From Akkermansia muciniphila (lineage in GTDB: Bacteria > Verrucomicrobiota > Verrucomicrobiia > Opitutales > UBA953), in contig CALQLO010000003.1 of assembly GCA_943331445.1 (NCBI GenBank), positions 1-64,000 on the forward strand: a stretch of 64,000 nt of DNA. Reading direction: 5' to 3'. Positions 21,099-51,672 of the stretch are shown in pieces. The translations under genes and the position numbers were made by a program. The notes under the pieces were generated by a model. That model was not told where the DNA came from, did no database searches, and worked only from the letters and a program-made list of their open reading frames with translations. How positions within the stretch are numbered: position 1 is the stretch's first letter; every line of letters starts with the position of its first letter.

Positions 21099-22301
21099 TT
21101 AGGCGTCCTCGAGGGTGCGTTCAACTTCGGTCGGGGCTTCGTAATCGATACCCGCGAGGCCGAAGCCAAAGTTCTTCATGAAGTCGGTCTGGTAGCCAGC
21201 GAAGTCCGCATGGGCATCAAACGTCTCGGTAGTCACCTGGGGCCAGAGGTCGAAAACGGCCTTCTGGACGTCTTCAGCCATTTCCCAGTCGTCGATGCGC
21301 ACGCGGCCGTTCTCATCGAAGTCGAGGGCGTTACCGTTGTACATCTGCTTCTCGAAGAGACGCTGGATTTGCTCGATGCAACCTTCGTGCGTGCCCTTGG
21401 CCTTCATGATTTTGAAGAGCAGGGAGACGTAGAGCGGGACGACGGGGATAGCGGAGCTGGCCTGGGTGACGACGGCTTTGTTGACGGAGACGAAGGCGCG
21501 ACCGCGGTGCAGTTTCATCAGGCTGTCAATTTTGCGGCCGGCTCGCTCGAGGTCTTCCTTCGCCTTGCCGATGGTGCCGTCTTTATAGATAGGCCAAGTG
21601 ACGCGGGGGCCGATGTAAGAATAGGCGACCGTCTGGCAGCCTTCCTTGAGGACTCCAGCGCCGTCGAGGGCGTTCATCCAGAGTTCCCAGTCTTCTCCGC
21701 CCATGACCTTAACCGTCTGCGCGATATCATCCGCCGAGGCAGTTTCGAGCGTCACATCGTTCACGACCTTGCGGTCGGTATCGAGGTTCTTGGCGTGGAA
21801 CGGTGCACCGGTTGGCTTGAGGACGGACTTATACGTTACGCCATCGGGAGCGGTCCGGCGAGGGGAGGCGAGGGAGTAGACGACGAGGTCGATCTTGCCG
21901 CCAGGCATCTTCGACTTGATGGCATCGATGACTTGGGTCTTTAGCTCCGCCGAGAAGGCGTCGCCATTAATGGAGACGGCTTTCAATCCCGCCTTCTTAG
22001 CTTCAGTGTGGAAGCCGGCGGTATTGTACCAGCCAGGAGAGCCCGGCTTATCGCCTTCGCCGTTACGCTCGAAGAACACACCCAGCGTCGCGGCGCCGGA
22101 CCCGAAGGCTGCGGAGATGCGTGAGGAGAGTCCGTAGCCCGTGGAGGCACCAATCACTAAGACGGACTTGGGTCCGCCTTGGATGGGTTGGCGGGATTTT
22201 ACGTAGGCAATCTGCTCACGAACGGCGGCGGCACAGCCGTCGGGGTGGGAGGTGATGCAGATGAACCCACGGACACGGGGTTTCACGACTTGCTGGGACA
22301 T
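21099..22301 (-). CDS. fabV: Trans-2-enoyl-ACP/CoA reductase FabV
   Basis: A 400-residue FabV, the long-chain SDR-type enoyl reductase that completes each fatty-acid elongation cycle with NADH and is naturally triclosan-tolerant. The signature N-terminus is KPRVRGFICITSHPDGC; the NADH site reads VLVIGASTGYGLSSRISAAF, the YSLASPRR loop follows, and the catalytic Tyr-X8-Lys region is SYIGPRVTWPIYKDGTIGKAK. The length is standard (about 400). The stop codon abuts the parA GTG start, so the order fabV-parA-DUF1826-like is a tightly packed unit. A four-helix-bundle cassette begins about 55 bp upstream of the start codon and may have changed its promoter context. Confidence 0.95.
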   Translation of the reverse strand: MSQQVVKPRVRGFICITSHPDGCAAAVREQIAYVKSRQPIQGGPKSVLVIGASTGYGLSSRISAAFGSGAATLGVFFERNGEGDKPGSPGWYNTAGFHTEAKKAGLKAVSINGDAFSAELKTQVIDAIKSKMPGGKIDLVVYSLASPRRTAPDGVTYKSVLKPTGAPFHAKNLDTDRKVVNDVTLETASADDIAQTVKVMGGEDWELWMNALDGAGVLKEGCQTVAYSYIGPRVTWPIYKDGTIGKAKEDLERAGRKIDSLMKLHRGRAFVSVNKAVVTQASSAIPVVPLYVSLLFKIMKAKGTHEGCIEQIQRLFEKQMYNGNALDFDENGRVRIDDWEMAEDVQKAVFDLWPQVTTETFDAHADFAGYQTDFMKNFGFGLAGIDYEAPTEVERTLEDA

Positions 22302-22365
22302 GGGGACACCTTTGGAGGGGGAGGGGATGAGTTCAATCTGGAATTAGGAGGCAAAGGTGGTGGCG

Positions 22366-22387
22366 GCGGTTGGCGGTTAGCGGTTGG
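22366..22387. repeat. Left arm of 22-base inverted repeat, cassette 1
   Basis: Composed of three heptamers GCGGTTG, GCGGTTA and GCGGTTG (last base shared with flank). It is the exact reverse complement of 23046-23067. Confidence 0.85.
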
Positions 22388-22511
22388 GATGGCGCACAAA
22401 GCGGCAGGGTGGGGATATTATGGGGTCTGGGCGTGGAGGAAGTTTGTCAGTCGTGTCATGGGTAATAGCGGGACGTGCGGTGGGAGCGCGTTTCTTGATG
22501 ATGGGGAGTCT

Positions 22512-22973
22512 ATGCATCCCCAAGAGAATCCCAAGGTAGTCAGTTATCGCGATCTTTCGGCATGGAAGGCCGCCAAGGCCCTCGCGGTCGAAGTGTATCG
22601 AGTCGTGAATGTCGCGGCGGTCCGGAATGACTTCGCACTCGTCGATCAGCTTCGCCGGGCGGCGATCTCTGTGCCGTCGAACATCGCCGAAGGCGCTGGC
22701 CGGGGGACGAATCAGGACGCCCTGAGGTTCCTTTACATCGCGAGGGGTTCCTTGTGTGAGCTGCGCACCCAGGTGGAGGTGATGCAGGAGGCCGGCCTTC
22801 TGGATAGCCGTATCTGCGAGTCGCTTCTGGGCCGCGCCGAGGAAGCTGGCCGTCTCCTCGGAGGGCTTGTTCGATTCCGGGCCTCTCGTCGCGACGGCGC
22901 CGCCGAGCCCGACAAGGTAATCGGGCCTTCGGCTCCGTCCTTCCGGTCTACTGACACGCGCCATAGGACATAA
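22512..22973 (+). CDS. Four-helix bundle protein (S23 rRNA-IVS / TIGR02436 family)
   Basis: A 153-residue helical protein. The family core is plain: YRDLSAWKAAKALAVEVYRV at the N-terminus, QLRRAAISVPSNIAEGAGRG in the centre, then RFLYIARGSLCELRTQVEV and a last helix ending LGGLVRF. Relatives are encoded inside intervening sequences of 23S rRNA genes and as the Avd accessory protein of diversity-generating retroelements; free-standing members have no known function. The C-terminal ~30 residues (SRRDGAAEPDKVIG...) are basic and low-complexity. ATG 22512 is chosen because the next upstream residues are not family-like. It lies inside a 22-base inverted repeat pair. A second member is at 29744-30124. 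Confidence 0.88.
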   Translation: MHPQENPKVVSYRDLSAWKAAKALAVEVYRVVNVAAVRNDFALVDQLRRAAISVPSNIAEGAGRGTNQDALRFLYIARGSLCELRTQVEVMQEAGLLDSRICESLLGRAEEAGRLLGGLVRFRASRRDGAAEPDKVIGPSAPSFRSTDTRHRT

Positions 22974-23045
22974 GTCCCCTCCGGGCTCATAACCCTTGCT
23001 TGTGGGGTCTGCTTGCGGATTGTTGCCACCTTCGCGGTCCAACCG

Positions 23046-23067
23046 CCAACCGCTAACCGCCAACCGC
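23046..23067. repeat. Right arm of 22-base inverted repeat, cassette 1
   Basis: Reverse complement of 22366-22387. It ends only 13 bases before the ATG of the aminotransferase gene, so the cassette occupies that gene's promoter/leader region. Confidence 0.85.
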
Positions 23068-23080
23068 TTCTACCTTCTTT

Positions 23081-24250
23081 ATGTTCAGTACGAGACTCTC
23101 TTTCGCCGACACGACCAATGCCTTGAGTAAGGCCAAGGCGAAGCGTCTCGCCGCCGGCCTGCCGGTGCTCGACCTCTCGGATTCTAATCCGGCCAATGCG
23201 GGATTCGCTTGGTCTGCCACCGACCTTGGTCCAATGCTGCGCCGCGATGGTATCCAGCGGCAGGATCCCGATCCGCTGGGCTTGGCCTCGGCCCGCACCG
23301 CCGTCTCGGATTATTATTCCTCACGCGGCGCGCGCGTGCCGGTTGACCGTCTGTTCCTGACGGCCAGCACGAGCGAGGCTTATTCATGGGTCTTTAAGCT
23401 GCTCTGCAATCCGGGCGACGAGGTGTTGGTGCCGTCGCCTGCTTACCCTTTGCTTGAAGTGATTGCCGCGCTCGAAGGCGTGACGCTCCGTCCTTATCAG
23501 CTCGTGCAGCTCGCGGGCGAGTGGGTTATCGATATCACGACGCTGAGTGTGAATCGCCAGACGCGGGCGATTCTCGCCATTAATCCTTCGAATCCGACCG
23601 GAGCTTTTGTGGGCCGCCGTGATCGCGACGTGCTGCGTGGCTTTGCGCTTAAGAACGGCTTGGCGATTGTTTGTGATGAAGTCTTCCTAGATTACCCGGC
23701 CGAAGGCGTGGCCTCGCCAGGCACGTGGGCGGGTGAAGCGAATGTGCTGACGTTCGTGCTCAGCGGGCTTTCCAAGGTCGCGCTCGCGCCGCAATTGAAG
23801 GTCGGCTGGATTGTCGTAGCCGGCCCAGCGGTGGCGACCCTTGAGGCGTGTCGCCGATTGGAGCACATCGCCGATGCCTATCTTTCCGTAAACACCCCGG
23901 CCCAGCTCGCCTTGCCAGACCTACTCCGCCGGGCCGAACCTCTCCGCGCCTTGGTGCGCACTCGGGTCGCCCAAGGTGAGGCCACCTTGCGTGCTTGGAC
24001 GACCGCTTCAGTCACCGGTTGTACGGTTTTACCCCGCCCTGCTGGTTGGACGGGTATCCTGACTTTACCCCCAGGGGTGCATGAGGATCGCTTCCTGATG
24101 AACGCGCTGAGTGAAGGCGTCTGGGTGCACCCTGGATATTTCTATGGAATGCCGACAACTGTCCCGAGTGTCGTTTTGAGCCTTTTGACCCCTCCAGACG
24201 GTCTTTCTGCAGGATTACAGGCGCTCGATCGGGCTTTGAAGCGGACTTGA
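23081..24250 (+). CDS. PLP-dependent class I/II aminotransferase
   Basis: A 389-residue fold-type I aminotransferase. Visible: LTASTSEAYSWVFKLLCNPGD (phosphate-binding loop region), VPSPAYPLLEVIAAL, LAINPSNPTGAFVGRRD, IVCDEVFLDYP (Asp and Tyr contacting PLP), and SGLSKVALAPQLKVGW with the Schiff-base lysine. The substrate is not determinable; overall it resembles bacterial AspC/alanine-aminotransferase-like proteins. The ATG at 23081 follows the right repeat of the upstream cassette by 13 bases, with no room for an independent promoter between them, so transcription must start inside or upstream of the cassette. rpmB follows 70 bp downstream. Confidence 0.86.
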   Translation: MFSTRLSFADTTNALSKAKAKRLAAGLPVLDLSDSNPANAGFAWSATDLGPMLRRDGIQRQDPDPLGLASARTAVSDYYSSRGARVPVDRLFLTASTSEAYSWVFKLLCNPGDEVLVPSPAYPLLEVIAALEGVTLRPYQLVQLAGEWVIDITTLSVNRQTRAILAINPSNPTGAFVGRRDRDVLRGFALKNGLAIVCDEVFLDYPAEGVASPGTWAGEANVLTFVLSGLSKVALAPQLKVGWIVVAGPAVATLEACRRLEHIADAYLSVNTPAQLALPDLLRRAEPLRALVRTRVAQGEATLRAWTTASVTGCTVLPRPAGWTGILTLPPGVHEDRFLMNALSEGVWVHPGYFYGMPTTVPSVVLSLLTPPDGLSAGLQALDRALKRT

Positions 24251-29225: not shown

Positions 29226-29692
29226 AGCCGCCGCTCCACCTCGTCCTGCTCCGCCCGGAGATTCCGCCGAACACCGGCAACGTCGGGCGCATGTGTGCCG
29301 TGACGGGTTGCGTACTCCACCTCGTCCACCCGCTGGGCTTCAAGATCGACGACGCCAAGCTGCGTCGCGCCGGCATGGATTACTGGCACGAACTAGACGT
29401 CCGCCATCACGACAACTGGGAAGCCTTCCTCGCCTCGCCCGGCCGCCCGGAGCGTCTCTGGCTCTTTACGACCAAAACGACGCGCGGCCTTTGGGATGCG
29501 GAGTTCCAGGAAGGCGACGGACTCGTCTTTGGCAACGAAGGCTCCGGCACGCCCGAAGAAATCCACGCTTGGTTCGGCGCGGACCGCGAAGTGAAGATCC
29601 CACACTTCAACGACAAGACTCGTTCGCTCAACCTCTCGACCGCCTGCGGAATCGCGACGTACGAGGCGCTGAGGCAGATTAAGGGGAGATGA
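29222..29692 (+). CDS. trmL: tRNA (cytidine(34)-2'-O)-methyltransferase TrmL
   Basis: A 156-residue SPOUT methyltransferase that modifies the wobble base of certain leucine tRNAs. Motifs: LHLVLLRPEIPPNTGNVGRM (N20 signature), LHLVHPLGFKIDDAKLRRAG, the knot residues GLVFGNEGSGTPEE and RSLNLSTACGIATYEALRQ. Start is the GTG at 29222 within the smpB stop codon, so translation is coupled. Its own TGA (29690-29692) already overlaps the first bases of the repeat bounding the next cassette. Confidence 0.95.
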   Translation: MKPPLHLVLLRPEIPPNTGNVGRMCAVTGCVLHLVHPLGFKIDDAKLRRAGMDYWHELDVRHHDNWEAFLASPGRPERLWLFTTKTTRGLWDAEFQEGDGLVFGNEGSGTPEEIHAWFGADREVKIPHFNDKTRSLNLSTACGIATYEALRQIKGR

Positions 29693-29737
29693 CTGAGTCG
29701 ATGGCGGATGACAGATGGCTGAATCGATCACGGAGGG
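29691..29737. repeat. Left boundary repeat of cassette 2
   Basis: Starts in the last two bases of trmL. It reads almost the same as the reverse complement of 51630-51668, differing at a few positions, and imperfectly as the reverse complement of 30192-30234. Confidence 0.75.
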
Positions 29738-29743
29738 GTATGG

Positions 29744-30124
29744 TCACTCGGGTCGGGATTTGCGGTAGGCGATTAGGCCGCCGATGAGTCGTCCGACTAG
29801 GACCATTTGTTCTGTGATGTTTCGGCTGTCCTCGATTTTGATTAAGCCGGTGCGCTGGCAGACGTCTATCTGTGACTCGAGTTCGCACAGGGAGCCGCGG
29901 GCGATGTAGAGGAACCGAAGTGAGTCCCGATTTGTCCCCCGACCGTTACCTTCGGCGATATTCGAGGGGATTGAAATGGCTGCGCGTCGTATCTGGTCGG
30001 CGAGTCCTCGATCCATGGAAGCTGGTCGTCTTGCGCAAAGCCTGTAAATCAACACGGCCAAGTCCCTTGATTCTATCCATGCCTTCAGCTGCCGATAAGG
30101 AGGCCCGTCCGGAGTTGTTTCCAT
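29744..30124 (-). CDS. Four-helix bundle protein (S23 rRNA-IVS / TIGR02436 family), second copy
   Basis: A 126-residue member of the same family as 22512-22973: YRQLKAWIESRDLAVLIYRL, QIRRAAISIPSNIAEGNGRG, RFLYIARGSLCELESQIDV and a last helix LVGRLIGGLIAYRKS. The central 40 residues are very similar to the first copy, the N- and C-termini are not, so this is family-level homology and not a recent duplication. Start ATG 30124 (METTPDGPPYRQL); an upstream ATG at 30199 would run into the boundary repeat. It is isolated from neighbours and bracketed by inverted repeats unlike those of the first cassette. Confidence 0.87.
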   Translation of the reverse strand: METTPDGPPYRQLKAWIESRDLAVLIYRLCARRPASMDRGLADQIRRAAISIPSNIAEGNGRGTNRDSLRFLYIARGSLCELESQIDVCQRTGLIKIEDSRNITEQMVLVGRLIGGLIAYRKSRPE

Positions 30125-30190
30125 GCTTCGGGGTGGCCGCTTCGCCGTCTCATCGCAACGCAGGCTTTTATCCAGGCGAGGCCTGGAGGG

Positions 30191-30265
30191 TTCTGTCATC
30201 GATTCAGCCCTCTGTCATCGACCCAGCCATCGACTACGTCCTCAATTCAGGCCTCCACTCAGTCC
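30191..30265. repeat. Right boundary repeat of cassette 2
   Basis: Contains two or three degenerate units of the type ATTCAGcCCTCtGTCATCGA, the inverted form of the left boundary. It ends about 40 bases before the stop of the nitrilase-family gene. Confidence 0.65.
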
Positions 30266-50913: not shown

Positions 50914-51537
50914 ATGACCAAGCAGGAGCGCGCTAACTATGTGGGGAAGGAGCTCGCGAGGCTCTACCCAACGACGCCTATTCCCTTGGATCACACGGAT
51001 GCTTTCACGCTACTGGTGGCGGTGGTGCTTTCGGCTCAGTGTACGGACAAAAAGGTCAACGAGATCACCCCGGCACTTTTCGCCGAAGCAGGTACGGCGG
51101 CCAAGATGGCTGCGATGACCGAGGTGCGGGTGCTGACGCTCATCCGCCAGCTGGGTCTCGCCCCGCAGAAATCCAAAGCGTTGGTCGGCTTGGGCAAACT
51201 GCTCATGGCGAAGCACGGCGGCACCGTGCCCCGGACCTTTGAGGAATTAGAGGAACTTCCAGGCGTTGGGCATAAGACCGCCTCCGTCGTCATGGCACAG
51301 GCTTTCGGGGTGGCCGCCTTTCCGGTCGACACGCATATCCATCGCCTGGCCAAGCGCTGGAAGTTGAGCCCGGGTAAGTCCGTCGAACAGGTTGAAAAGG
51401 ACCTCAAGCGACTCTTCCCTGAGGACAGTTGGAATCAGCTGCATCTGCGGATTATCTTCTACGGGCGGGAGCACTGCACCGCGCGCGGCTGCGGCGGTAA
51501 GACGTGTGGGATTTGTGCCGCGCTAGCGCAGAAGTAG
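50914..51537 (+). CDS. nth: Endonuclease III (nth), with an atypical C-terminal cysteine spacing
   Basis: A 207-residue HhH-GPD DNA glycosylase/AP lyase. Hallmarks: LLVAVVLSAQCTDKKVNEI, the HhH FEELEELPGVGHKTASVVMA with the catalytic Lys of VGHKTA, and VDTHIHRLAKRW containing the catalytic Asp. E. coli Nth ends in C-X6-C-X2-C-X5-C for the [4Fe-4S] cluster; here the tail CTARGCGGKTCGIC gives C-X4-C-X4-C-X2-C and stops soon after. Start ATG 50914 is preferred over 50872. Confidence 0.92.
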   Translation: MTKQERANYVGKELARLYPTTPIPLDHTDAFTLLVAVVLSAQCTDKKVNEITPALFAEAGTAAKMAAMTEVRVLTLIRQLGLAPQKSKALVGLGKLLMAKHGGTVPRTFEELEELPGVGHKTASVVMAQAFGVAAFPVDTHIHRLAKRWKLSPGKSVEQVEKDLKRLFPEDSWNQLHLRIIFYGREHCTARGCGGKTCGICAALAQK

Positions 51538-51539
51538 AG

Positions 51540-51670
51540 GACTGAATCGATGACAGATGACGGATGACAGAGTGCTGCGTCGATGAATGACCCAGGGCAG
51601 AAAGCAACTTTGGTCTATCTGTTTTTATCGATTCAGACCTCTGTCATCTGCCATCGACTCAGTCATCTAC
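51540..51670. repeat. Gene-less palindromic element related to cassette 2 repeats
   Basis: 131 bp filling the whole gap between convergent nth and the thioesterase gene. The left arm starts GACTGAATCGATGACAGATG at 51540; the right arm 51630-51668, in reverse complement, reads GACTGAGTCGATGGCAGATG then ACAGAGGTCTGAATCG. The right arm is nearly identical to the left boundary of cassette 2 (29691 onward). No coding sequence is inside. It behaves as a solo, MITE-like or REP-like copy. Confidence 0.75.
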
Positions 51671-51672
51671 TA

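Follow-up and report, generated by a model that had tools for sequence, protein, structure and literature searches.

The cassette between fabV and the aminotransferase gene

The DNA analysed here, called the window below, comprises positions 1 to 64,000 of contig CALQLO010000003.1 (assembly GCA_943331445.1, Akkermansia muciniphila) and contains a short cassette between fabV, the gene for trans-2-enoyl-CoA reductase (21099-22301, minus strand; PF12241, PF12242 and PF07055), and a gene for a class I/II aminotransferase (23081-24250, plus strand; PF00155). The cassette is bounded by arrays of GCGGTTG and GCGGTTA units, and positions 22366-22387 and 23046-23067 form a perfect inverted-repeat pair, which continues as an imperfect match to 22353-22387 and 23046-23080 (35 nt on each side, 86%). 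The left arm is the array at 22353-22387 (plus strand). The right arm (23041-23080, plus strand) consists of AACCGCC and AACCGCT units, is longer than the left, includes two identical 14-mers at 23041-23068 and reaches the ATG of the aminotransferase gene at 23081, the gap from the end of its perfect part at 23067 being 13 bases.

Between the window arms no gene was seen besides one open reading frame (ORF) at 22512-22973 on the plus strand, with an alternative in-frame ATG at 22458. Its sole detected Pfam domain is PF05635, the S23p or 23S rRNA IVP family (E 7.9e-31; 106.9-107.6 bits against a curated cut-off of 33.8). The initial annotation, made from the letters of the window, had described exactly complementary heptamer arms, a single gene of the family encoded by 23S rRNA intervening sequences (IVSs), a place between fabV and the aminotransferase gene 13 bases before its ATG, and the lack of a transposase. 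All of this was borne out, and with it the description of an IVS-like cassette that lies outside rRNA and has two protein-coding neighbours. A profile built from 14 relatives matches the solved structure 2gsc (E 4.9e-36), which is XCC0516, the S23p of Xanthomonas campestris (PMC4990558). The median dN/dS of 0.068 over 95 pairs indicates purifying selection on the ORF.

Inverted short-repeat arrays around PF05635 genes

The layout is far more general than the initial annotation supposed. A PF05635 match is present in 41 of the 57 genomes of the relatives search, this genome included. The search gave 118 matches in 112 loci, 100 of which had adequate flank and profile cover for a comparison of the upstream flank with the reverse complement of the downstream one. 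The median score was 25.25, against 9.5 for flanks cross-paired between elements, and 87 of the 100 genes exceeded the 95th percentile of the cross-pairs. A fairer control is the same geometry placed elsewhere in the same loci. For this comparison 300 bases were needed on both sides, which 91 of the 100 genus genes and 10 of the 11 order genes had, and a gene was called armed at a score of at least 15. Arms were found at 85 of 91 PF05635 genes in the genus against 8 of 388 control places, and at 6 of 10 in the order against 0 of 30. The sample from other phyla, which is the best 80 of 582 confirmed places in GTDB genomes, with record titles that name Bacteroidetes, Clostridia, Planctomycetes, Deltaproteobacteria, the candidate phyla radiation (CPR) and others, had 78 testable loci after two with short flanks were dropped; 49 of these were armed, against 0.8% of 1661 control places. 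Overall, 140 of 179 PF05635 genes with enough flank are armed. On cyanobacterial plasmids, 9 of 12 loci hand-picked out of 30 records were armed, while the 58 control places scored 12 at most.

The repeat sequence varies between elements (GCGGTTN, TCGATGGCAGATGAC, GTGCAAAG, AGGGGT, AGTTACA, TAGGGAG and others), while the two arms within an element agree with each other. Of the 140 armed elements, 137 have the G-rich strand reading inward. Repeats are mostly 7-8 bp, and where a period is clear it is most often 7/14 or 8/16. The term heptamer is a simplification because many arms gave no clear single period (35 of 85 in the genus, 13 of 49 in the other phyla).

The type of arm is related to the protein. 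Among 507 pairs of protein clusters drawn from different sites, the more alike the proteins are, the more alike are the arms (rho 0.25, not equalled in any of 2000 permutations). The value of 0.56 in the top class (at least 65% identity, 7 pairs) is inflated by a pair of copies in genome G043 and by locus L101, which is perhaps the same site on a short contig; with those three loci removed, rho is 0.27 (1 of 1000 permutations as high), in the genus alone it is 0.34 (0 of 1000), and mean arm similarity climbs from 0.11-0.12 at less than 35% identity to 0.32-0.36 at more than 55% (12 pairs). Within 19 orthologous clusters no covariation of the arms was detected, since an element's own arms scored 26.5 and orthologue-swapped arms 27.4 (p 0.63). 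Base-by-base compensation is thus not seen, and the arms match at the level of the repeat type, as would be expected of recognition sequences or of arms deposited together.

Occupied and empty sites, and arrays without the gene

Orthologues of fabV and of the aminotransferase gene anchored the comparison of their junction across genomes, and the cassette occupies 7 of 19 orthologous sites. In genome G003 the junction carries just one heptamer array, and in G009 and G021 it carries a TCGA-type array. The left flank agrees at 49 of 50 bases with that of the cassette-free G008, after which the cassette replaces a leader of about 60 nt. Between the stop codon of the ORF and the right arm (about 22974-23040), filled species share a conserved block with TTGCTTGTGGGGTCT or close variants, which has no significant similarity to empty fabV sites; it may now serve as the promoter of the aminotransferase gene. 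A native promoter of that gene inside the right arm was considered and dropped, the signal being not significant against shuffles.

The groES (Cpn10) site is filled in three of the nine species read, with flank matches listed in further genomes outside the nine. The sister genome G002, with flanks 99-100% identical, and G003 retain array scraps only, G008 and G015 have gene-less hairpins of other repeat types, and nothing recognisable was found there in G001 and G010. At the trmL site 6 of 19 genomes are filled, five of them with TCGATG arms; in one of the five (G011) the gene is split over two frames and the assembly has a gap. The sixth, G016, carries a gene on the opposite strand with other arms, and both flanks confirm the inversion. 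G021 has only a hairpin and G017 only an array at this site, and nothing was seen in the 260 bases read in 11 genomes. A collapsed remnant of the outermost units marks the site of locus L006 in the relative G017. A further hairpin, long and nearly perfect, with arms that are not simple repeats and with inner hairpins (L313/L320 on G032:C29), has no listed PF05635 match and occupies a site where G017 has a PF05635 element.

Genome G043 contains two copies at different sites that are identical at 420 of 453 positions (93%) from array to array, and beyond the arrays their flanks do not match. Together with the filled and empty states at fabV, groES and trmL, this moved copy agrees with the mobile unit proposed in the initial annotation, and movement over evolutionary time is well supported by these sequence comparisons.

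The repeats are also dispersed. This genome has 137 matches to GCGGTTN triplets with at most two mismatches, against 29 for a reversed-pattern control; single arrays are common among them and some are ORF-less hairpins. We counted arrays of two repeat types (at most one mismatch, the elements' own arms included) in 55 genus genomes and compared their abundance in the 37 of known PF05635 content, leaving out the other 18. The median number of GCGGTTN arrays was 67.5 in the 8 genomes that carry the matching gene and 8 in the 29 that lack it (p 0.002), and that of GTGCAAA arrays was 31 in 12 genomes with and 13 in 25 without (p 0.0005). Crossed controls gave p 0.74 and 0.62. The initial annotation had pictured an isolated cassette and named repeats that occur independently of the gene as grounds against that picture. 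Its layout and mobility stand, but the heptamers are widespread without the gene. Since free arrays are commoner where the matching gene is present and some are ORF-less hairpins, a better fit is a population resembling repetitive extragenic palindrome doublets forming hairpins (REPINs) or miniature inverted-repeat transposable elements (MITEs). On small contigs of genome G000 (C38, C49, C54, C63 and C67; L151-L155), single GCGGTTN arrays recur every few kb, mostly in one orientation per contig, and several contig ends have arrays within about 140 bases, as if the assembly broke there.

A putative mobile element without a transposase

We propose, with a probability of roughly 0.57, that the feature is a small mobile cassette whose ends are inverted arrays of G-rich short repeats and whose only gene encodes an S23p/IVP four-helix bundle that recognises its own repeats. 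By analogy, it would resemble an rRNA IVS in its content and the system of REPINs and REP-associated tyrosine transposases (RAYTs) in its population structure. The S23p protein would bind the repeat unit at both ends of its element, and the two-array unit, with or without the gene, would be copied or moved as a whole into intergenic spaces, probably by host enzymes; in several cases elements abut a stop or start codon. Copies that have lost the interior would persist as hairpins or single arrays and so build up the REPIN/MITE-like population of the same repeat type.

Several observations weigh against this proposal. No recombinase, nuclease or replicase is encoded in the element, which leaves the movement step without an enzyme. 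Clear target-site duplications were not seen at the borders read, and at the fabV site the leader of about 60 nt is gone. The third and shorter copy in G043, which lies nearby, shares both ends and 14-16 bases past the array with one of the other two, so the border of the element may not be strict. The 111 genes group into 38 protein clusters spread over 27 sites. All but two of the clusters (36 of 38) occur at one site only, which implies that recent movement is rare in the genus and directly seen only in G043. Homologous recombination that swaps whole intergenic regions could explain part of the patchy occupancy. In the cross-paired flank comparison only 19 of 100 genes exceed the 99th percentile (32.0), because the cross-pairs include members of the same family, and clear arms at a score of 15 are missing from 29 of the 78 loci sampled in other phyla. 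The abundance statistics ignore kinship and genome completeness, and many arrays occur where no matching PF05635 gene was found (70 in G012, 68 in G016 and 57 in G015).

Three other explanations were weighed. An element that acts at the RNA level, like an rRNA IVS, would have arms kept for pairing in the transcript, RNase III would cut the hairpin out, so that intergenic insertions would be neutral, and the protein would bind or protect the excised RNA. In the RNA fold predicted for the entire cassette, the arms form the closing stem (z -3.22 with 20 shuffles), and the rRNA IVS of Coxiella has a 28-bp terminal stem, is cleaved by RNase III in vitro and carries tandem GACAGAT heptamers in its 5' part (PMC4990558). 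However, the equal fit of swapped arms weakens a pure RNA-stem explanation and single arrays are common, so that we regard this account as unlikely. We think it quite improbable that the arrays are host hairpins, which would act at the ends of genes as bidirectional terminators or as translation signals, with S23p as a domesticated regulator that binds them. Such a role would suit the hairpins that abut stop codons (29688 and 51533 of the window), the purifying selection on a site-stable ORF and the regulatory roles proposed for TAACTGA heptamers (PMC4679880), but not the patchy occupancy of orthologous sites, a site where elements differ in array type and lie in opposite orientations, or copies at separate places whose match runs from one array to the other.

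Movement of the arrays in trans by an unrelated enzyme such as a RAYT/Y1 transposase, with the S23p gene as a passenger, appears very improbable. Y1 transposase matches (E <= 0.001) do occur in 28 of the 55 genus genomes, 24 of which are over the family cut-off, with two matches in this genome, and at one Y1 locus (L343) a short-repeat hairpin lies near the gene without enclosing it. Against this, inverted repeats enclose the match at 16 of the 20 Y1 loci read. They are GGGGTCAG-type REPs in 15 of these cases, and on visual inspection none is like the arms of the PF05635 elements, whose type follows the S23p protein. A RAYT/REP origin of the arrays is therefore disfavoured, as the Y1 loci carry other repeats, and the two appear, from their sequences, to be separate systems in the same genus. 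RAYT-like genes inside GGGGTCAG-type REPs were seen at L336, L337, L341, L342, L352 and other Y1 loci. Another potential partner comes from diversity-generating retroelements (DGRs), whose accessory protein Avd resembles PF05635 (PMC10053308). A reverse transcriptase match was found in only one of the 55 genus genomes (G014:C112:2869-3561) and in none of the other 54, many of them incomplete, nor in this genome, which is about 95% complete; a reverse transcriptase or DGR partner is thus unsupported, although template and variable repeats were not searched for.

The proposed S23p cassette has counterparts among known systems. The 23S rRNA IVSs of Leptospira and Coxiella likewise hold an S23p family ORF inside a terminal inverted repeat, whose stem is predicted in our case, whereas the cassette lies between two protein genes and PF05635 elements occur in several copies per genome, with different arms and with dispersed ORF-less relatives in intergenic DNA. 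Four conserved 23S motifs (exact 12-base seed, at most 8 mismatches) had no match in 192 loci. Like the REPIN/RAYT system of Pseudomonas (PMC3116915), the elements combine a repeat type that is dispersed between genes genome-wide, partly as inverted doublets, with a gene enclosed by its own repeat type, whose copies are distinct and mostly single. Unlike that system, PF05635 encodes a four-helix bundle without a Y1/HUH domain and the arms are tandem arrays of about 7 bp instead of short palindromes. The inverted repeats of an insertion sequence (IS) element enclose a transposase gene, and those of the window cassette do not. Cyanobacterial short tandemly repeated repetitive sequences (STRRs) are dispersed intergenic heptamer repeats. 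TAACTGA (PMC4679880), GGGAATC of Xanthomonas and GGGGA(C/T)T of Nostoc (both PMC4692102) are intergenic heptamer arrays as well, and in two Xanthomonas genomes GGGAATC forms convergent inverted pairs, 70 in one and 75 in the other (PMC4692102). The sections of these two papers that we consulted link no gene to the repeats; the TAACTGA study considers that a repeat-binding protein could be a mobile element, leaves its identity open and calls for its identification (PMC4679880). By analogy we propose that S23p is linked to the dispersed heptamers of those species too. In the open literature of PMC, as far as it was consulted, we found no report that ties S23p genes to inverted arrays of heptamers elsewhere than in rRNA; the search extended neither to subscription papers nor to preprints outside PMC.

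The recurrence of this layout in many bacterial phyla suggests that mobile elements of this kind, which carry no transposase, are widespread and have received little recognition. We entertain, at somewhat less than even odds, the broader view that S23p genes and arrays of short G-rich repeats make up a single class of such elements throughout bacteria, with rRNA IVSs as landings in rRNA, and TAACTGA, GGGAATC and the STRRs as free or ORF-less derivatives. If true, rRNA IVSs would be one landing site of a larger family, and one answer would be at hand both for PF05635, which is widespread and has no known function, and for the origin of dispersed bacterial heptamers. As the inward strand is nearly always G-rich, it may be speculated that the arrays are made at insertion, when the target is broken and both of its 3' ends are extended by repeat units in a telomere-like manner; beside this idea stands the observation that a reverse transcriptase was not found in most of the genus. 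PF05635 genes inside CRISPR or other operons may likewise be there by insertion rather than as functional partners. A CRISPR-association survey mentions PF05635 in a figure legend (PMC10910872), which is possibly explained by insertions among cas genes. Three of the 12 plasmid loci (L361, L362 and L366) have the PF05635 gene between cas genes, twice between cas6 and cas4 and once between cas10 and a cmr3-family gene; the arms score at least 15 in both cas6/cas4 cases and 14.5 in the third.

Further elements of both kinds, with and without the gene, are present in this genome, which has three PF05635 genes, all over the curated cut-off. A gapped scan of 464 kb (the window and parts of contigs C1, C2 and C4; 19% of the 2.41-Mb genome) detected four inverted arrays scoring at least 20 within about 1 kb, against none in shuffled controls (one Markov shuffle per piece); a rescan that allowed short loops returned the same four and again none in new shuffles. 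One is the window cassette and another, at 29688-30243, belongs to a second PF05635 element; the third is a hairpin without an ORF (51533-51671), and the fourth lies on C2. The outer TCGATG-type array of the second element (29688-29734, plus strand) starts at the stop codon of a SpoU methylase gene (trmL-like; TGA at 29690-29692), its PF05635 ORF runs on the minus strand (29747-30124, with a putative start codon), and its other array lies at 30192-30243 (plus strand). The MITE-like hairpin at 51533-51671 is also of the TCGATG type, has a 75-nt loop and takes up all the space from stop codon to stop codon between convergent genes of the HhH-GPD and thioesterase families.
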